From Streptomyces sp. NBC_00250 (GTDB taxonomy: Bacteria > Actinomycetota > Actinomycetes > Streptomycetales > Streptomycetaceae): a stretch of DNA of 64,000 bases. Location: the NCBI RefSeq assembly GCF_036192275.1, contig NZ_CP108088.1, positions 1-64,000 of the forward strand. The letters are read 5' to 3'. Positions 2,720-32,735 of this stretch are shown in pieces. The notes beneath the pieces were generated by a model. That model saw only the letters and a program-made list of their open reading frames with translations, was not told where the DNA came from and did no database searches. A program made the position numbers and the translations under genes. The first letter of the stretch is position 1. Each line of letters opens with the position of its first letter.

Positions 2720-3335
2720 GCGCTCGGTGTCGAAGCCGTAGCGGCGGGCGAAGGCCGGCCACCTCGGGTCACCGCGCTGGCCCTCGGTCGCTGGAAGCCC
2801 GTACGCGCGCATCTGCTCGTAGGTGAGCAGCACCCGGTCACCGAGCTCCAGCAGCCGGTGCGCTCCACCCAGTCCCGCTCGATGTCCTCGCCGGAGCAGT
2901 CGAAGTCGCCGACCACGAGTAGACGGGCTTTGCGTTGCTCGTGGGCGACGCAGTGGCGGACGTCGTCGGCGTACTGAAGCCGCGGACCACGAGCACCGGG
3001 CTGCCCGCGAACTCGAGCCAGCCGGTCAGCTGCTGGCGGAGGGTGTCCTTCTCGGCTGCGACGTACACGGCCTGCTTCTGGCCCGTGGTGTGGTCCAGGC
3101 GGAACCAGTCGGGCATCTCGGCGGCGAACGCGCCGGCGTCCGGCCCGGCCGGTGGGACGTGGACTTCGCGGATGGTGTCGATCAGGTCGGGGAAGCGGCC
3201 TCCCGCTGGGCCTGTGCCAGCCGCGAGGACAGCCGGCGGTACGTCGGCGGCGTGTGCGGCAGCACGCCCTCGGCTGTCGCGACCGTCTCCGACTTCAACC
3301 CGACGTCGAGGTTCAGCAGGTGTCCAGCGTGTAGA
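2720..3335 (-). pseudogene. Broken Toprim-domain (Spo11/TopoVI-A-like) protein
   Basis: Three minus-strand frames must be joined to read one protein: an N-terminal piece with LNLDVGLKSETVATAEG and PTYRRLSSRLAQAQRE, a middle with LEFAGSPVLVVRGF, then VVGDFDCSGEDIERDWVERT and finally LLTYEQMRAYGLPATEGQRG. The GDFDCSGEDI motif is the acidic DxD part of a Toprim domain, as in plasmid and phage proteins related to the TopoVI A subunit. At least two frameshifts separate the pieces and the C-terminus dissolves near 2720. It is a decayed gene, probably from a mobile element. Confidence 0.6.
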
Positions 3336-27239: not shown

Positions 27240-27797
27240 GTGAAACGTGGCGATCTGACCGATGCTCAGTGGGCCCGGCTGGAGCCGTTGCTGCCAACGG
27301 GCAAGAACCCTGGACGGTCGCCGATTTGGACCCGGCGACAGCTGATCAACGGCATACGCTGGCGGACACGCACCGGGGCGCCGTGGAGGGATGTGCCAGA
27401 GCGGTACGGTCCCTGGGGCCGCGTGTACGACCTGTTCCGTCGCTGGCAGCGGGACGGCACCTGGAAACGCTTCCTCGCCGAGCTGCAGGCCCAGGCCGAC
27501 GCAAAGCATCTGATCATGTGGGACATCGACGTCGACTCCACGGTGTGCCGGGCCCACCAGCACGCCGCCGGGCTCGAAAAGAGGGGGAACTGCAGGTCGA
27601 GCCGCCAGGTGGTGTCGACATCGAGCCGGCCGGCCGCGGACTCGGACGCTCATGCGGAGGTTTGACCCCAGAGGCACCGGGCGGTGGCCACCCACTACGA
27701 GAAACTCGCCGTCCGCCACGAAGACTCCGTCCTCGTCGCGGCCATCAACGAATGGCTGTGGCCGGCACGGAAATCAGATCGCCCCACCGCGGTGTGA
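27240..27797 (+). pseudogene. IS5-family transposase with internal deletion
   Basis: N-terminal part KRGDLTDAQWARLEPLLPTG, WTRRQLINGIRWRTRTGAPW, MWDIDVDSTVCRAHQHAAGL (first catalytic Asp in DIDVDSTV). After about 27590 the frame loses the family; the C-terminus reappears at ~27672 as AVATHYEKLAVRHEDSVLVA and AINEWL. Roughly the middle 100 residues, with the other DDE residues, are gone. The left boundary near 27215 (GAGATGATCTCACTTTGTG) looks like the element's end. Confidence 0.8.
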
Positions 27798-27813: not shown

Positions 27814-28287
27814 ATGATCACAGACTTCACCGTGCGCTCCGCCCGACCCGCCGATGCGGGCCGCCTGGCCGAACTCCGATGGACGTTCAAGCAAGAGGAC
27901 CACGAAGGGCGACCACCGACCCCCGCTCGGCCCCTGGAAGAGGCAGAGCAATGGATCCACGACCGGCTCAGGGACGGCCACTGGCTGGCCTGGGTCGCGG
28001 AGACCGAAGGTGAAATCTGCGGTCACGTCTTCCTCTGTCTGGTGGAGCGGATGCCGGATCCCTACGAGGACAACAACCCGGTCGGCTATGTCACGAACTA
28101 CTTCGTCCTGCCGTCACAGCGGAACAAAGGAGCCGGCTCCGCGCTCCTTGAGGGGCTGAAGCAGCATTCCCGCAGTGCAGGCCTTGAGGGCTTGATCGTC
28201 TGGCCGTCAGAGCGCAGCACCCCGCTCTATCGGCGCCTCGGTTTCCAGCCCCCAGACGAACTGCTGGAACTTCCACTCGACACCTGA
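27814..28287 (+). CDS. GNAT family N-acetyltransferase
   Basis: 157 residues from the ATG (MITDFTVRSARPADAGRLAE). The GNAT fold is plain: strand/helix start, VGYVTNYFVLPSQRNKGAGS with the acetyl-CoA-binding Q/RxxGxG/A (QRNKGAGSALLEGL) at about residues 98-110, and the closing SERSTPLYRRLGFQ. It would transfer an acetyl group from acetyl-CoA to an unknown amine. It begins 16 bases after the IS5 relic, so its promoter may have been supplied or altered by the insertion. Confidence 0.85.
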   Translation: MITDFTVRSARPADAGRLAELRWTFKQEDHEGRPPTPARPLEEAEQWIHDRLRDGHWLAWVAETEGEICGHVFLCLVERMPDPYEDNNPVGYVTNYFVLPSQRNKGAGSALLEGLKQHSRSAGLEGLIVWPSERSTPLYRRLGFQPPDELLELPLDT

Positions 28288-28321
28288 CGAGATCCACTTC
28301 CGATACAACGGCCTAGCTGTA

Positions 28322-28860
28322 TTGACCCGCAGGGTTGTTGACGCGGCTGATGGGCGGGTGGCCGTCGAGTGCGGTGTGGCAGCGGTGGTGGTTGTAGGTG
28401 TGGAGGAAGGCCTGTCAGGGCTTCGGTTCGCTCGGTGTTGCTGGTGTAGGGCCGTAGGTAGGCCCATTCGTCGAGGAGGGTGCGGTTGAAGCGTTCGACC
28501 TTGCCGTTGGTCTGCGGCCGGTAGGGGCGGATCTTCTTGTGGGCGATGCCGGCCGTGGTCAGCGTCTGGGTGAACAGCTGGGACTTGTAGCAGGAGCCGT
28601 TGTCGGTCAGAACCCGTTCGACGGTGATGCCGTGGGCGGCGAAGAATGCGTTCGCGTGTTGCCAGAAGGCAGTGGCGGTGGGCTGGCGTTCGTCGGGCAG
28701 GACTTCGCTGTAGGCCGGGCGGGAGTGATCGTCGACGGCCGAGTGGATGTAGCTGTAGCCGATCACCGGCTTGCAGCTGCGGCGCTGGTCGGTGGTGGCC
28801 TTGCCGGTTGTGGTCGCCGGCTGTCCTGCCGACAGAAGGGCACCCTTCATGGTCCTGCGC
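28322..28860 (-). pseudogene. IS481-family transposase, C-terminal part with frameshift
   Basis: The rve integrase core reads VIGYSYIHSAVDDHSRPAYS (Asp), ERVLTDNGSCYKSQLF (Asp), RPYRPQTNGKVERFNRTLLD (Glu). Near 28415, after SNTERTEAL, a frameshift is needed to reach the family's end (HTALDGHPPISRVNN). The N-terminal HTH half is missing past about 28860. The end at 28315 (TGTATTGACCCGC) looks like the original terminus. Confidence 0.8.
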
Positions 28861-29028
28861 AGATGCTCGATACTCGGCGAGGGGCTGGGTGTTGCAGCAG
28901 TTCCCCGGCACGGAGGTTCGGGCGCAGTGAGATCCGGGCAGGTACCGTTCGTGTAGCGCCCTCTCCGCCGGGTCCAACTCCATTGGAGGCGAGGGCATTT
29001 GGGAGGGACCACGGGGGACGGAGGGCCC

Positions 29029-29436
29029 ATGGAAGCGATCACGGCCGAGCTCCTCACGGCGCTGGCCAGTGGCACTGCGGGCGCGGCGGGGCAGCAGGCA
29101 TGGATGTCGCTGCGCGACCTCGTGCGGCGTCGCACCGAACCGGACAGGGTGCCCGGCGCACCCGAGGAGGTCCCGTCAGGGGAGGAAGAACTCGTGGCCC
29201 TGGACGAGCAGGCCGAGAGCATGGAGCGGGCGCGAGCGCTCGCCCGCGTGCTGGCGCTGCGGGCCACGTACGACCACGCGTTTCGCGACGATCTCACGGC
29301 CTGGCGGAGCAGTGCGGAAGACGCCGCAGCCCGAACCGGTGCGGGTGATGTCGACAACCGCATCACGGGCGGCAGGCAGGACACCGTCATCATGGGGCGG
29401 GATTTCCACAGCCCCATCACATTCAACCAGCCATGA
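29029..29436 (+). CDS. Small helical partner of the NACHT protein
   Basis: 135 residues; the ATG (MEAITAELLTALASGTAGAA) follows GGAGGG by three bases. Residues 1-100 are helical with a hydrophobic/Ala N-terminus (an amphipathic or membrane-associating helix is possible) and an acidic middle. The C-terminus DVDNRITGGRQDTVIMGRDF matches the N-terminus of the NACHT protein downstream (DVHNVFSGNATYVIQGRDF). The gene is 189 bases upstream of that gene on the same strand. Likely an adapter, effector or regulator working with it; no enzymatic motif is visible. Confidence 0.7.
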   Translation: MEAITAELLTALASGTAGAAGQQAWMSLRDLVRRRTEPDRVPGAPEEVPSGEEELVALDEQAESMERARALARVLALRATYDHAFRDDLTAWRSSAEDAAARTGAGDVDNRITGGRQDTVIMGRDFHSPITFNQP

Positions 29437-29625
29437 CGCGGCGTCGGCCCTGCCGTGCCGTGATGGAGCGTCCAGACGTGGCGTCACGAGTCCGCCTCCA
29501 CGAGTCTGTACGTCCGGAGGCGCGCCGCCCGATATCGGAGCGGCAGGAACGCGACGTCGGGCGAAACGGGGATGTACAAGATGAAGCTTTCCTGTAGACC
29601 GCGGACAGAGACCGGCTGAGCGGCC

Positions 29626-32190
29626 ATGTCGGAGCAGGCACAGGGCGACGTGCACAACGTGTTCTCGGGCAATGCGACGTACGTGATCCAGGGCCGGGAC
29701 TTCAGTGCCGTTCACCTGCATCTGCCGTTGCCGCAGACGCCGCAGGACCGCGCCGCCGCCGAATTGGCGCGCGTGGTGCTCGCTCAGTGGCGGGACGAGG
29801 CGGGGGCTCTCGGCCTGGCCGGAAGCGCCAGGCTCGCGGTGGGCTGGCGGGCCGACTGGACGGTCGCCGATCACCGCGAGCACATCGGGGCGGACGTGGC
29901 AGGCAGCACTGCGGGCCTCGCCCAACTCGCCGCTGCCTTCCAGGCTCTGCCCGCCCAGCGTCTGGTGATCATCGGTGGTCCCGGCACGGGCAAGACGTCC
30001 CTGGCGATCCTTCTGTCGCTGCAGTTGCTGAGCCTGCACGATGTGACGAGGCCCGTTCCCGTACCGCTACTGGTTTCCACCTGGGACGCGAGCAAGGAAC
30101 ACTTCGACGTCTGGCTCGCGCGCCGCATCCACGAGGAATACATCGGCCTGAGCAGGGATCTCGACCGAGCCCGGATCCGCGACCTGGTGCGCGACCGGCG
30201 GGTACTTCCGGTTCTCGACGGCCTGGACGAACTACCGCGTCCGCTTCGGTCAGCGGCGCTGGCCGGACTCAACAAGACAGGCGCCGACAGCGCGCCGCTC
30301 ATTCTCGCCTCCCGCACGACGGAGTATGCCGAACTCGTCGAAGAAGAGACCGTGCTACAGGCGGCGGCCGTGATCAAGGCACAGCCGGTGGAAGGGGCCG
30401 CGGCGGCCGTGTACCTGCGCGGCTCCTCGCATCCCCAGCGCACCCGGCGCTGGCAGGGGCTCCTGGACCACATCACCCACCACCCCGAAGCCGTGTCGGC
30501 CAGGGCCCTCTCGTCCCCGCTCATGCTGTGGCTGGCCCGCACGGTGTACGCCCGCGCGGACGCCGATCCCGGCGAGCTCGTCGACGAATCCCGCTTTCCC
30601 GATGTCGTGGCCATCGAACGGCACCTGCTCGACTCCATCGTTCCGGCAGCCTTCCCCTCCGGACCGGCCTCGCCCCACCAGCCCCATCCAGTACGCGAGT
30701 GGGGGCACGCACAGGCGCAGCGTGCCCTTGGCTTCCTAGCCGCCCATCTCACCGCGGCAAAGACCAAAGAGTTAGCTTGGTGGGAGCTGCACCGAGCGAA
30801 GGCGCCGACGTTCCTCAAGGCGCCGGCGCTGCTGATCGGCTATGTCCTGCTGATGACGGGTTCCTCGTGGTTCCAGGACTGGATCACCAGAGGCGATGCG
30901 TTTCAAGCCTTCCAGGTAGCCGTGGGAGCCTGGGCCGCCACGATGTTCGGGACGATGGGAGGCTTACTCCTGCTGCTCTCGCACTTGTGGAAGGGGCCTC
31001 TGCCCCGTCGGCTCGCCATGTTCGGCAGCCACCGGTCGCGTATCCCAGGCCTGTTCTGGCTTCTTGTGTTTCTGGCACCCATCGTCTTGCTCCTGGCACA
31101 GGACAAGCCGTTCATGGCGCTGGGCTTCATCGTTCCGCCGCTGCTCATGATGGTCGTCGGCGCGCCCGCCGACACCGCGCAGGCCGTCGGACCGCGGGCA
31201 CTGCTGAGCGGAGAGCGGGCCAGCACCGTGCTCATGGTGCTCGGTGTCGCACCGGTGATCGGAGCCATCGGCACCCTCAGCATCGTCCACACCCCCGACC
31301 GCAGCGTGCTGTTCGGCAGTTGGATCTCCGGAACCGCCGGGGCGGCCGCGGTGATCGTGGCGCTTAGCCCCTGGACGCAGTGGCTGCTCGCGAAGGTGAC
31401 TCTCGCGGCTCTGGGAACGTTGCCATGGTCGACCATGGCGTTCCTCGAGGACGCGCGCCGCGTGGGTCTGCTGCGACAGGTCGGCGGCGTCTACCAGTTC
31501 CGCCACGCCCAGATCCAGGCAGGCTTCGCGGCCCGTCAGCGCGGCGGCGCCCCGGCGCGTCGGCGGCGCGCCCGCACCCGCGTGCCCTGGCCGGTCCGCC
31601 CGCTGCCCGCGGCGAGCACCACCCCACAGTCCGTACGCATCCCCGGTTACGTCGGGCCGCGGATCACCAGAGGGGGGCAGCCGGCCATGTACGTGGGGAT
31701 GTGGACGATCGCGCTGGTGTGGGTCGGCATCATCACCTTCGAGGACGGCTGGCAGGATCCCGGCGCCTTGCAGACCGTGGGCTTCTTCGTGGCGCTTCCC
31801 CCCGCCATCGACCTGCTGATCCCGCCCCTCACCTGGCGGCGCGCCGAGTTATGCCTGGACGAGAACGGGATCGAGTTCGCGTTGGGTAGGCGGACGCTCC
31901 GCTTCGAGTGGCGGGAGGTCGCGGACGTCGCACCGCGCCTGTTCGAACCGCCGCTCGGCAAGAATGACGACGGCACCGTCATGCTTCACCTGCGGCTCAC
32001 TGCCGAGGCAACTCCCGAGCCGCGGATCCGTGTCAACAGCGCGGGCTGGGTGGCCCTGTGGCCGCTCGACTGCCCCACCGGAGACCCGGGCGACGCGACG
32101 ATCCGACCCGAATTGGATGACGCGCTCGTACGCTTCGCGGGCGCACGATGGCAGCGGCCTCCGGCGGGGAGATTGACGGGCCGGCAGTGA
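29626..32190 (+). CDS. NACHT-domain STAND NTPase with membrane region
   Basis: 854 residues. Residues 8-26 carry the GRDF motif shared with the upstream small protein. The NACHT NTPase follows: Walker A GGPGTGKTS at 117-125, Walker B VLPVLDGLDE at 193-202 (NACHT-type D-x-x-DE) and SRTTEY as sensor. A helical arm reaches ~400. Then a block of hydrophobic helices at about 400-610 (ALLIGYVLLMTGSSW, FWLLVFLAPIVLLLAQ, VLMVLGVAPVIGAIG), and two more helices near 690-730 before a soluble C-terminal beta domain. No LRR, TPR or WD40 sensor is present. Bacterial NACHT proteins include anti-phage and signalling ATPases; here the effector is probably membrane disruption or tethering (inference). Confidence 0.85.
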   Translation: MSEQAQGDVHNVFSGNATYVIQGRDFSAVHLHLPLPQTPQDRAAAELARVVLAQWRDEAGALGLAGSARLAVGWRADWTVADHREHIGADVAGSTAGLAQLAAAFQALPAQRLVIIGGPGTGKTSLAILLSLQLLSLHDVTRPVPVPLLVSTWDASKEHFDVWLARRIHEEYIGLSRDLDRARIRDLVRDRRVLPVLDGLDELPRPLRSAALAGLNKTGADSAPLILASRTTEYAELVEEETVLQAAAVIKAQPVEGAAAAVYLRGSSHPQRTRRWQGLLDHITHHPEAVSARALSSPLMLWLARTVYARADADPGELVDESRFPDVVAIERHLLDSIVPAAFPSGPASPHQPHPVREWGHAQAQRALGFLAAHLTAAKTKELAWWELHRAKAPTFLKAPALLIGYVLLMTGSSWFQDWITRGDAFQAFQVAVGAWAATMFGTMGGLLLLLSHLWKGPLPRRLAMFGSHRSRIPGLFWLLVFLAPIVLLLAQDKPFMALGFIVPPLLMMVVGAPADTAQAVGPRALLSGERASTVLMVLGVAPVIGAIGTLSIVHTPDRSVLFGSWISGTAGAAAVIVALSPWTQWLLAKVTLAALGTLPWSTMAFLEDARRVGLLRQVGGVYQFRHAQIQAGFAARQRGGAPARRRRARTRVPWPVRPLPAASTTPQSVRIPGYVGPRITRGGQPAMYVGMWTIALVWVGIITFEDGWQDPGALQTVGFFVALPPAIDLLIPPLTWRRAELCLDENGIEFALGRRTLRFEWREVADVAPRLFEPPLGKNDDGTVMLHLRLTAEATPEPRIRVNSAGWVALWPLDCPTGDPGDATIRPELDDALVRFAGARWQRPPAGRLTGRQ

Positions 32191-32735
32191 GCGCTTTCAG
32201 CGTCTTCACCACCGCCGGCACCGCCTGGTACACCACCCTCGACACCCCCGCCGGGAGCGGACCCCCGACAACCGCGCACGGCGTGTGCCTGCCCGCGACC
32301 GACACCGACGAGGACAAGGCCGGCTACGCCCGCACCATCGCCCTGGTCACCGTCGACCACGCGGTCGAGTACCGCGAGGAGGACGAAGCCTCGGGCGGCG
32401 CACTGCTGTCGAAGGTCACGGTCGTCCAGCCGCTCAAGGGCGCTCCGGCCGCGAGGCTGACGATCGGGCAGTCCGTCCTGCGGCAGGCCGACGGCACCTA
32501 CGCGAAGACCAAGCCCGCCTATCTGCCACTCGAGCCGGGCCACCGCTACGTCGTCGGCACCGTCCCCGACGCGGCATACGACGACGGCTGGGTCTGGTTC
32601 GCAACTGCCGCCGACAACGACCTCGCCACAGCCACCACTCGTTGGACACGTGCCATCGACCACCAGGTCGCCCCGCACCCCGACCCCGCCTGCAACGACG
32701 TACTCAACGACAGGTCCAGCCCCGCCATGCCCTGA
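32187..32735 (+). CDS. Hypothetical third gene of the NACHT locus
   Basis: Starts at a GTG whose GTGA overlaps the NACHT stop, with GACGGG upstream, so it is translationally coupled. The 182-residue product begins VSAFSVFTTAGTAWYTTLDT and continues with beta-rich text (VTVDHAVEYREEDEASGG, LLSKVTVVQPLKGAPAARL, LPLEPGHRYVVGTVPDAAYD), reminiscent of an OB- or Ig-like fold. No signal peptide and no catalytic motif. The overlap is the main hint that it belongs to the same system. Confidence 0.65.
   Translation: MSAFSVFTTAGTAWYTTLDTPAGSGPPTTAHGVCLPATDTDEDKAGYARTIALVTVDHAVEYREEDEASGGALLSKVTVVQPLKGAPAARLTIGQSVLRQADGTYAKTKPAYLPLEPGHRYVVGTVPDAAYDDGWVWFATAADNDLATATTRWTRAIDHQVAPHPDPACNDVLNDRSSPAMP

Follow-up and report, generated by a model that had tools for sequence, protein, structure and literature searches.

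How is a bacterial NACHT NTPase connected to the small protein encoded just upstream of it, when the end of the one and the start of the other carry the same short motif? This question is raised by a locus of Streptomyces sp. NBC_00250 located within the initial 64 kb of contig NZ_CP108088.1, which is 9.16 Mb long (genome size, 9.27 Mb); this whole analysed stretch of 64,000 nucleotides is here called the window. The locus is composed of a gene for a 135-residue protein (29029..29436, plus strand) and a gene for an 854-residue NACHT protein (29626..32190, plus strand), a compact arrangement of two genes in 3.2 kb. We consider it likely that they constitute a receptor/effector gene pair working like the BASS amyloid-signalling NLR pairs, our confidence being slightly lowered because the window pair alone lies near the edge of one of the backgrounds and shows no preference for its own partner.

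A motif shared by the two proteins

The C-terminal tail of the small protein (GDVDNRITGGRQDTVIMGRDFHSPITFNQP) and the beginning of the NACHT protein (MSEQAQ-GDVHNVFSGNATYVIQGRDFSAVHLHL) carry the same motif, as delimited by alignment and by a motif model: residues 106–132 of the small protein (29344..29424, plus strand) align locally with residues 7–31 of the NACHT protein (29644..29718, plus strand) with a score of 50, whereas the best score obtained with both ends of the 53 other genes in the window is 28. The motif likeness put forward in the original prediction, made from the DNA letters alone, is in this way confirmed. Shuffling the NACHT head never reached a score of 50 in 5000 trials, and shuffling both sequences reached it once in 5000. 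Scanning the 9.27 Mb genome with the motif model (27 positions and 17 segments, both window copies being included in the build) retrieved the two window copies at E ~1e-10, followed by the tail of another small protein at E 0.077. The motif had been called rare, which holds within the genome but not for the small-protein family, which is common in Streptomyces. N11 and Q22 are invariant in the NACHT motif of the window protein and 26 relatives (34–89% identity; taken from 120 listed relatives after inspection of their N-termini). The AlphaFold models show the motif as unstructured in both proteins (pLDDT ~42 in the small protein).

Recurrence of motif-matched pairs

A database search at E ≤ 0.01 gave 54 relatives of the small protein; where their source is named, it is Streptomyces or Actinacidiphila. 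A relative at E ≤ 1e-5 is present in 106 of 392 Streptomyces genomes. Recurrence was evaluated in 93 regions: 12 loci, 80 further regions taken around the better-scoring places of the 392-genome search, and the window. Gene calls at these loci were made by a codon-usage script, which may miss starts or small genes. From 78 loci we obtained 80 distinct small proteins, the other 15 giving none (no call, a product longer than 260 residues, or a duplicate). For 42 of the 80 small proteins, a gene for a P-loop protein of 450 residues or more is found no more than two genes away, some of the counted pairs lying on opposite strands or two genes apart, and in 21 of these 42 cases the small protein matches the first 80 residues of its P-loop neighbour above the 99.9% level of a background of 5000 comparisons between small-protein tails and N-termini of non-P-loop proteins. 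The predicted recurrence of the motif in adjacent pairs is thus observed. The nine scanned partners that bear the motif comprise six NACHT proteins and three NB-ARC/AAA proteins with TPR; therefore it is the motif that is kept, and not the receptor type. In L031, L032 and L080, read as DNA, both genes are present and in order (L031 and L032 were found via the small protein). Comparison of the 15 closest NACHT clusters with the 14 closest small-protein clusters also revealed seven longest contigs of equal size (126612, 108496, 84257, 17289, 436916, 117323 and 6330).

Starting from the NACHT side, 28 relatives from the first search had a called gene (32–78% identity), and the N-terminal motif was recognized by eye in five of them (L002, L003, L004, L005 and L029; in L029 it is encoded in a different frame from the NACHT part). 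A matching small neighbour was found for L002, L005 and L029. L029 and L083 are one locus, which because of this difference in frame is counted without partner in the 93-region sample. Among the listed NACHT relatives beyond P0097, many have at their start not the motif but a membrane segment or a different domain. A tie to the partner exists, in part, for the motif-bearing NACHT proteins, but not for their family taken together. The condition under which the original prediction was to fall, most NACHT homologues occurring without the small partner, accordingly has a mixed outcome, three of the five motif-bearing relatives being paired and two unpaired.

Small proteins were also observed next to other proteins. 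In L094–L098, L100 and L119 motif-tailed ones adjoin AfsR/SARP-like proteins (assigned by eye) of about 1000 residues without an N-terminal motif, and L134 is a similar case. In L033, L077 and L079, where the small protein lacks a motif partner, it is followed each time by a protein starting with MAVYGIDLGTTYSC (Hsp70-like by eye) and by an 875-residue protein.

Partner specificity

Sub-variants of the motif occur together in the two members of a pair: QEISGGTQHNVVFTR with QEISGGTQQNVVFAR in L036, EITGGDFKGPVFQGRDFNGPMNF with EIGGGEFRAPVILARDFTGPVHF in L074, and DVHVEFSGTSNGPVVVGRDF with DVHGEFSGVAHGPVFMGRDI in L078. For 12 non-redundant pairs, the mean score is 62.6 with the own partner and 47.8 with foreign ones, a result equalled or exceeded in 41 of 200,000 permutations; neighbours were selected by their P-loop, and only foreign tails served to choose the motif-bearing heads. 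An earlier permutation test with eight pairs (one in 40,320 assignments) was discarded as biased, its pairs having been picked by their own score. The host genome contains a second motif-matched pair, and the own-partner scores of the two pairs are 50 and 61, against cross scores of 28 and 40. Together with the recurrence in pairs, this partner-specific matching supports the homotypic interaction through a shared terminal motif that had been suggested from the window alone.

The second host pair is found in L158 (G000:C1:629500-639000), with the small protein at 636234-636554 and the receptor at ~630551-632790, both on the minus strand. It brackets a cassette for a cyclophane ribosomally synthesized and post-translationally modified peptide (RiPP), which comprises a radical SAM protein of the FxsB family (TIGR04269, 537 bits, cut-off 370), an FxSxx-like peptide ending in CLPSSTSTS (recognized by eye) and a GNAT gene on the opposite strand. 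The same five-gene order is present, according to our gene calls, in L163:7864-13786, where the receptor also begins with the motif; in a set of 100 genomes, the L158 small protein is found in two, its own and that of L163. Our literature search yielded no paper tying the motif pair to a cyclophane RiPP cassette.

A divergent pair was identified in L005 (G018:C2, minus strand; receptor at 550-2721 and a 142-residue small protein at 2721-3149). Its motif is unlike that of the window and resembles the published RHIM-like BASS3 peptide, with z-scores of 6.1 for the small protein and 3.6 for the receptor. Since L005, a relative of the window NACHT protein, has a BASS3-like motif in both members, the receptor family seems, judging from these sequences, to swap motif and partner together.

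The NACHT receptor

The NACHT protein has a central NACHT NTPase of the NLR type. It matches PF05729 above the cut-off of this family (E 4.5e-7), and Foldseek searches with its AlphaFold model (mean pLDDT 75.5) gave nine PDB matches at E ≤ 0.001, all of them chains of NLRC4, NOD2 and NLRP3; NLRC4 and NOD2 are the best (lowest E 1.9e-5), the whole-chain TM-scores of the nine being about 0.2–0.3 and that of the best matches ~0.27. The NTPase core and the helical region after it span residues ~98–342 (29917..30651, plus strand), with the Walker A motif at residue 117.

C-terminal to this core, hydropathy and the structural model predict a membrane region. A 19-residue scan detects seven hydrophobic segments in the protein, and the model places helices at residues ~425–595 and 686–736. 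The first group would form a multi-pass region (30898..31410, plus strand), and the second would belong to a C-terminal module (31630..32187, plus strand) with putative membrane helices at residues 686–705 and 712–736, followed by a predicted beta domain at residues 738–841, for which the Pfam search returned no match. A scan of 42 NACHT relatives (P0055-P0096), which had been retrieved by searching with the entire protein, shows at least four hydrophobic segments after the Walker A motif in every one of them. Tripartite NLR proteins usually end in a repeat sensor; in Pfam and in the model no such sensor was found at the C-terminus of the NACHT protein, and the membrane helices and beta domain lie there instead, in agreement with what had been proposed from the sequence. 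PADLOC gives ATPase-region matches only (best E 0.0071) for the NACHT protein, and none for the two small proteins of the supposed three-gene locus. A plasmid search with the NACHT protein returned 12 records; identity stays below 60% in each, and so does coverage of the query below 80%.

The small protein

The AlphaFold model of the small protein (mean pLDDT 71.6, mostly 70–90 except in the motif and one loop) predicts five helices (residues 6–14, 18–34, 52–60, 65–81 and 83–104) and an unstructured tail. The protein, which has no family match in Pfam, PADLOC or NCBIfam, would therefore be a small alpha-helical bundle, as is a Bell domain, for which a profile was reportedly published by Dyrka et al. 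in 2020. Bell domains have a hydrophobic transmembrane helix; the small protein has no clear one, and we therefore label it a Bell-like, and not a Bell, effector candidate. The maximal 19-residue hydropathy of its 54 database relatives, some of which are fragments, ranges from 0.16 to 1.54, and they show no more than a weakly hydrophobic stretch at the N-terminus. An alignment with 50 of these relatives (P0013, P0014, P0030 and P0045 being left out) shows that both the helical domain and the tail are conserved, G114 and V120 being invariant, and many tails read V-[IVL]-Q-[AG]-R-D.

Boundaries and surroundings of the locus

The original prediction described a three-gene locus, which we reduce to two genes. 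The third gene (32187..32735, plus strand) does overlap the NACHT stop, through GTGA at 32187-32190, and its open reading frame is open from 32148; its membership in the locus does not hold. A leader of the type MKHKRTTLTVLAAAAVLTTAGAAWYTT ([KQ]-H-K-R), judged by eye to be a signal or an anchor, opens 18 of its 22 other database relatives; the window gene has no such leader and aligns with its relatives only from TTAGTAWYTT. Four shorter relatives also have no leader. DNA homology with the nearest relative locus, L031 (whose small protein is 90% identical to that of the window), reaches the NACHT stop and then ends, and the gene after NACHT differs in L031, L032 and L080, according to our gene calls. 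We rejected the third gene as a system component on the basis of the missing leader and of this end of homology; judged from sequence, a rearrangement junction accounts for the overlap better than an operon does.

Just upstream of the pair there are pieces of transposase genes, namely DUF4096 (IS4/5-type) at 27240-27665 on the plus strand and an rve integrase-core piece within 28230-29030 on the minus strand. No small-protein match was obtained in plasmid and phage collections at E ≤ 1e-5, and at this threshold no relative is present in G100, the only further genome of this species that was sampled. The two-gene unit looks accessory.

Relation to known systems

PMC7889193, PMC8086366 and PMC9815663 describe BASS families in the C-termini of Bell homologues and the N-termini of neighbouring NLR proteins of bacteria, mainly multicellular ones. 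These NLR/Bell pairs and the window pair have in common the adjacency of two motif-sharing genes, the placement of the motif (C-terminal in a small helical protein, N-terminal in an NLR), the presence in actinobacteria with several motif families, and the recurrence across genomes as motif-matched pairs. The window receptor differs by its predicted membrane region and beta domain in place of repeats, and the small protein by having no clear transmembrane helix. As this motif layout is how the published BASS systems were found, the locus can no longer be called an undescribed system, as it first was; it is probably a variant of BASS-type signalling and not a new principle. The motif itself was compared with a published peptide of BASS3, the sole family compared of BASS1-10, and the z-scores of 0.5 and -0.6 led us to reject a RHIM-like BASS3 assignment; its ARD pattern fits a remark on the end of BASS2 in PMC9815663.

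The fungal NWD2/HET-S and PNT1/HELLP signalosomes, as outlined in PMC7889193, follow the same two-gene logic of an N-terminal receptor motif and a C-terminal effector motif, but differ, as described, in their motifs, their receptors and their effector domains (HeLo/HELL). The NLR-related NACHT proteins of bacterial antiphage defence, the subject of PMC12169576, share the NACHT NTPase core; the PADLOC matches of the window protein are confined to the ATPase region, at the E-value given above or worse. The EAD-based conflict systems (PMC8195603) use the same homotypic adaptor principle to join effector and core system; their adaptors, however, are folded, mostly helical domains, whereas that of the window is a 20-residue motif.

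Proposed mechanism and alternatives

In the mechanism that we favour, the putatively membrane-embedded NACHT protein would act as the sensor. Upon activation its NACHT domains would oligomerise, as their NLR fold suggests, gathering the N-terminal motifs, which may then take up a beta-arch or amyloid-type fold. This nucleus would template the matching C-terminal motif of the small protein, and the helical domains clustered in this way would stop growth or kill the cell, most likely at the membrane. A role in abortive anti-phage defence is plausible.

Several observations weigh against this mechanism. Compared with the broader background, whose 99.9% level is 49 and whose maximum is 54, the window pair with its score of 50 is barely above, and it is significant mainly because its two genes adjoin. 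The own head is the best match for only five of the 12 tails, and the own tail for four of the 12 heads; the window tail matches five of 13 foreign heads in one comparison, and three of 11 in another, better than its own. The tail of the second host small protein scores 40 against the window receptor, a value reached by 12 of 1000 shuffles, and cross-talk between the two host pairs may occur. Half of the P-loop neighbours (21 of 42) fall below the motif-match cut, such a neighbour is missing within two genes for 38 of the 80 small proteins (for some of them by reason of contig ends or missed calls), inspection by eye reveals no motif in 23 of the 28 NACHT relatives, and no small neighbour is found within ~1.5 kb of L003 and L004. 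Finally, the best PDB match in a fold search with the small protein has an E-value of 2.7, and the maximal 19-residue hydropathy of the small protein is 1.1.

The similar tails on many Streptomyces small proteins, like the closeness of the window score to the background, could mean that the motif likeness is a coincidence or a low-information Gly/Asn-rich pattern. The shuffles of the window sequences, the permutations of the 12 pairs, the genome scan, the recurrence in pairs and the second host pair led us to reject low-information chance, and we regard a coincidence as highly improbable. An exchange of roles, with the NACHT protein acting as effector through its membrane region and the soluble small protein holding it through the motif as an adaptor or brake, so that loss of the small protein or motif assembly opens the receptor, would explain the hydrophobic segments in every relative scanned and the weak hydrophobicity of the small protein. 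Lone small proteins are common, however, and a dedicated brake would therefore be odd; moreover, L107 and L112, NB-ARC/TPR partners of the same small family, have one hydrophobic segment each, and the membrane module is therefore not a constant part of the receptor. We consider this exchange unlikely. About equally doubtful is that the two proteins are simply tethered by a short linear motif of an ordinary, non-amyloid kind (a beta-strand pair, for example); the unstructured state of the motif in the models is consistent with this, but its placement and the gene layout are those of the BASS families, and amyloid-like aggregation was measured for one BASS3 peptide, according to PMC8086366.

Implications

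If the pair does signal through templating, it may, tentatively, represent a class of membrane-anchored NACHT amyloid receptors in which both sensing and nucleation take place at the membrane and templating draws a soluble helical partner to it. The motif sub-variants would then act as private channels, and a genome could hold several largely separate amyloid circuits, including one centred on a cyclophane peptide cassette. The pair is a good test case, since the divergent sister pairs with different motifs suit specificity swaps, and the putative membrane module on the receptor would make it possible to ask directly whether the NACHT or the small protein acts on the membrane.

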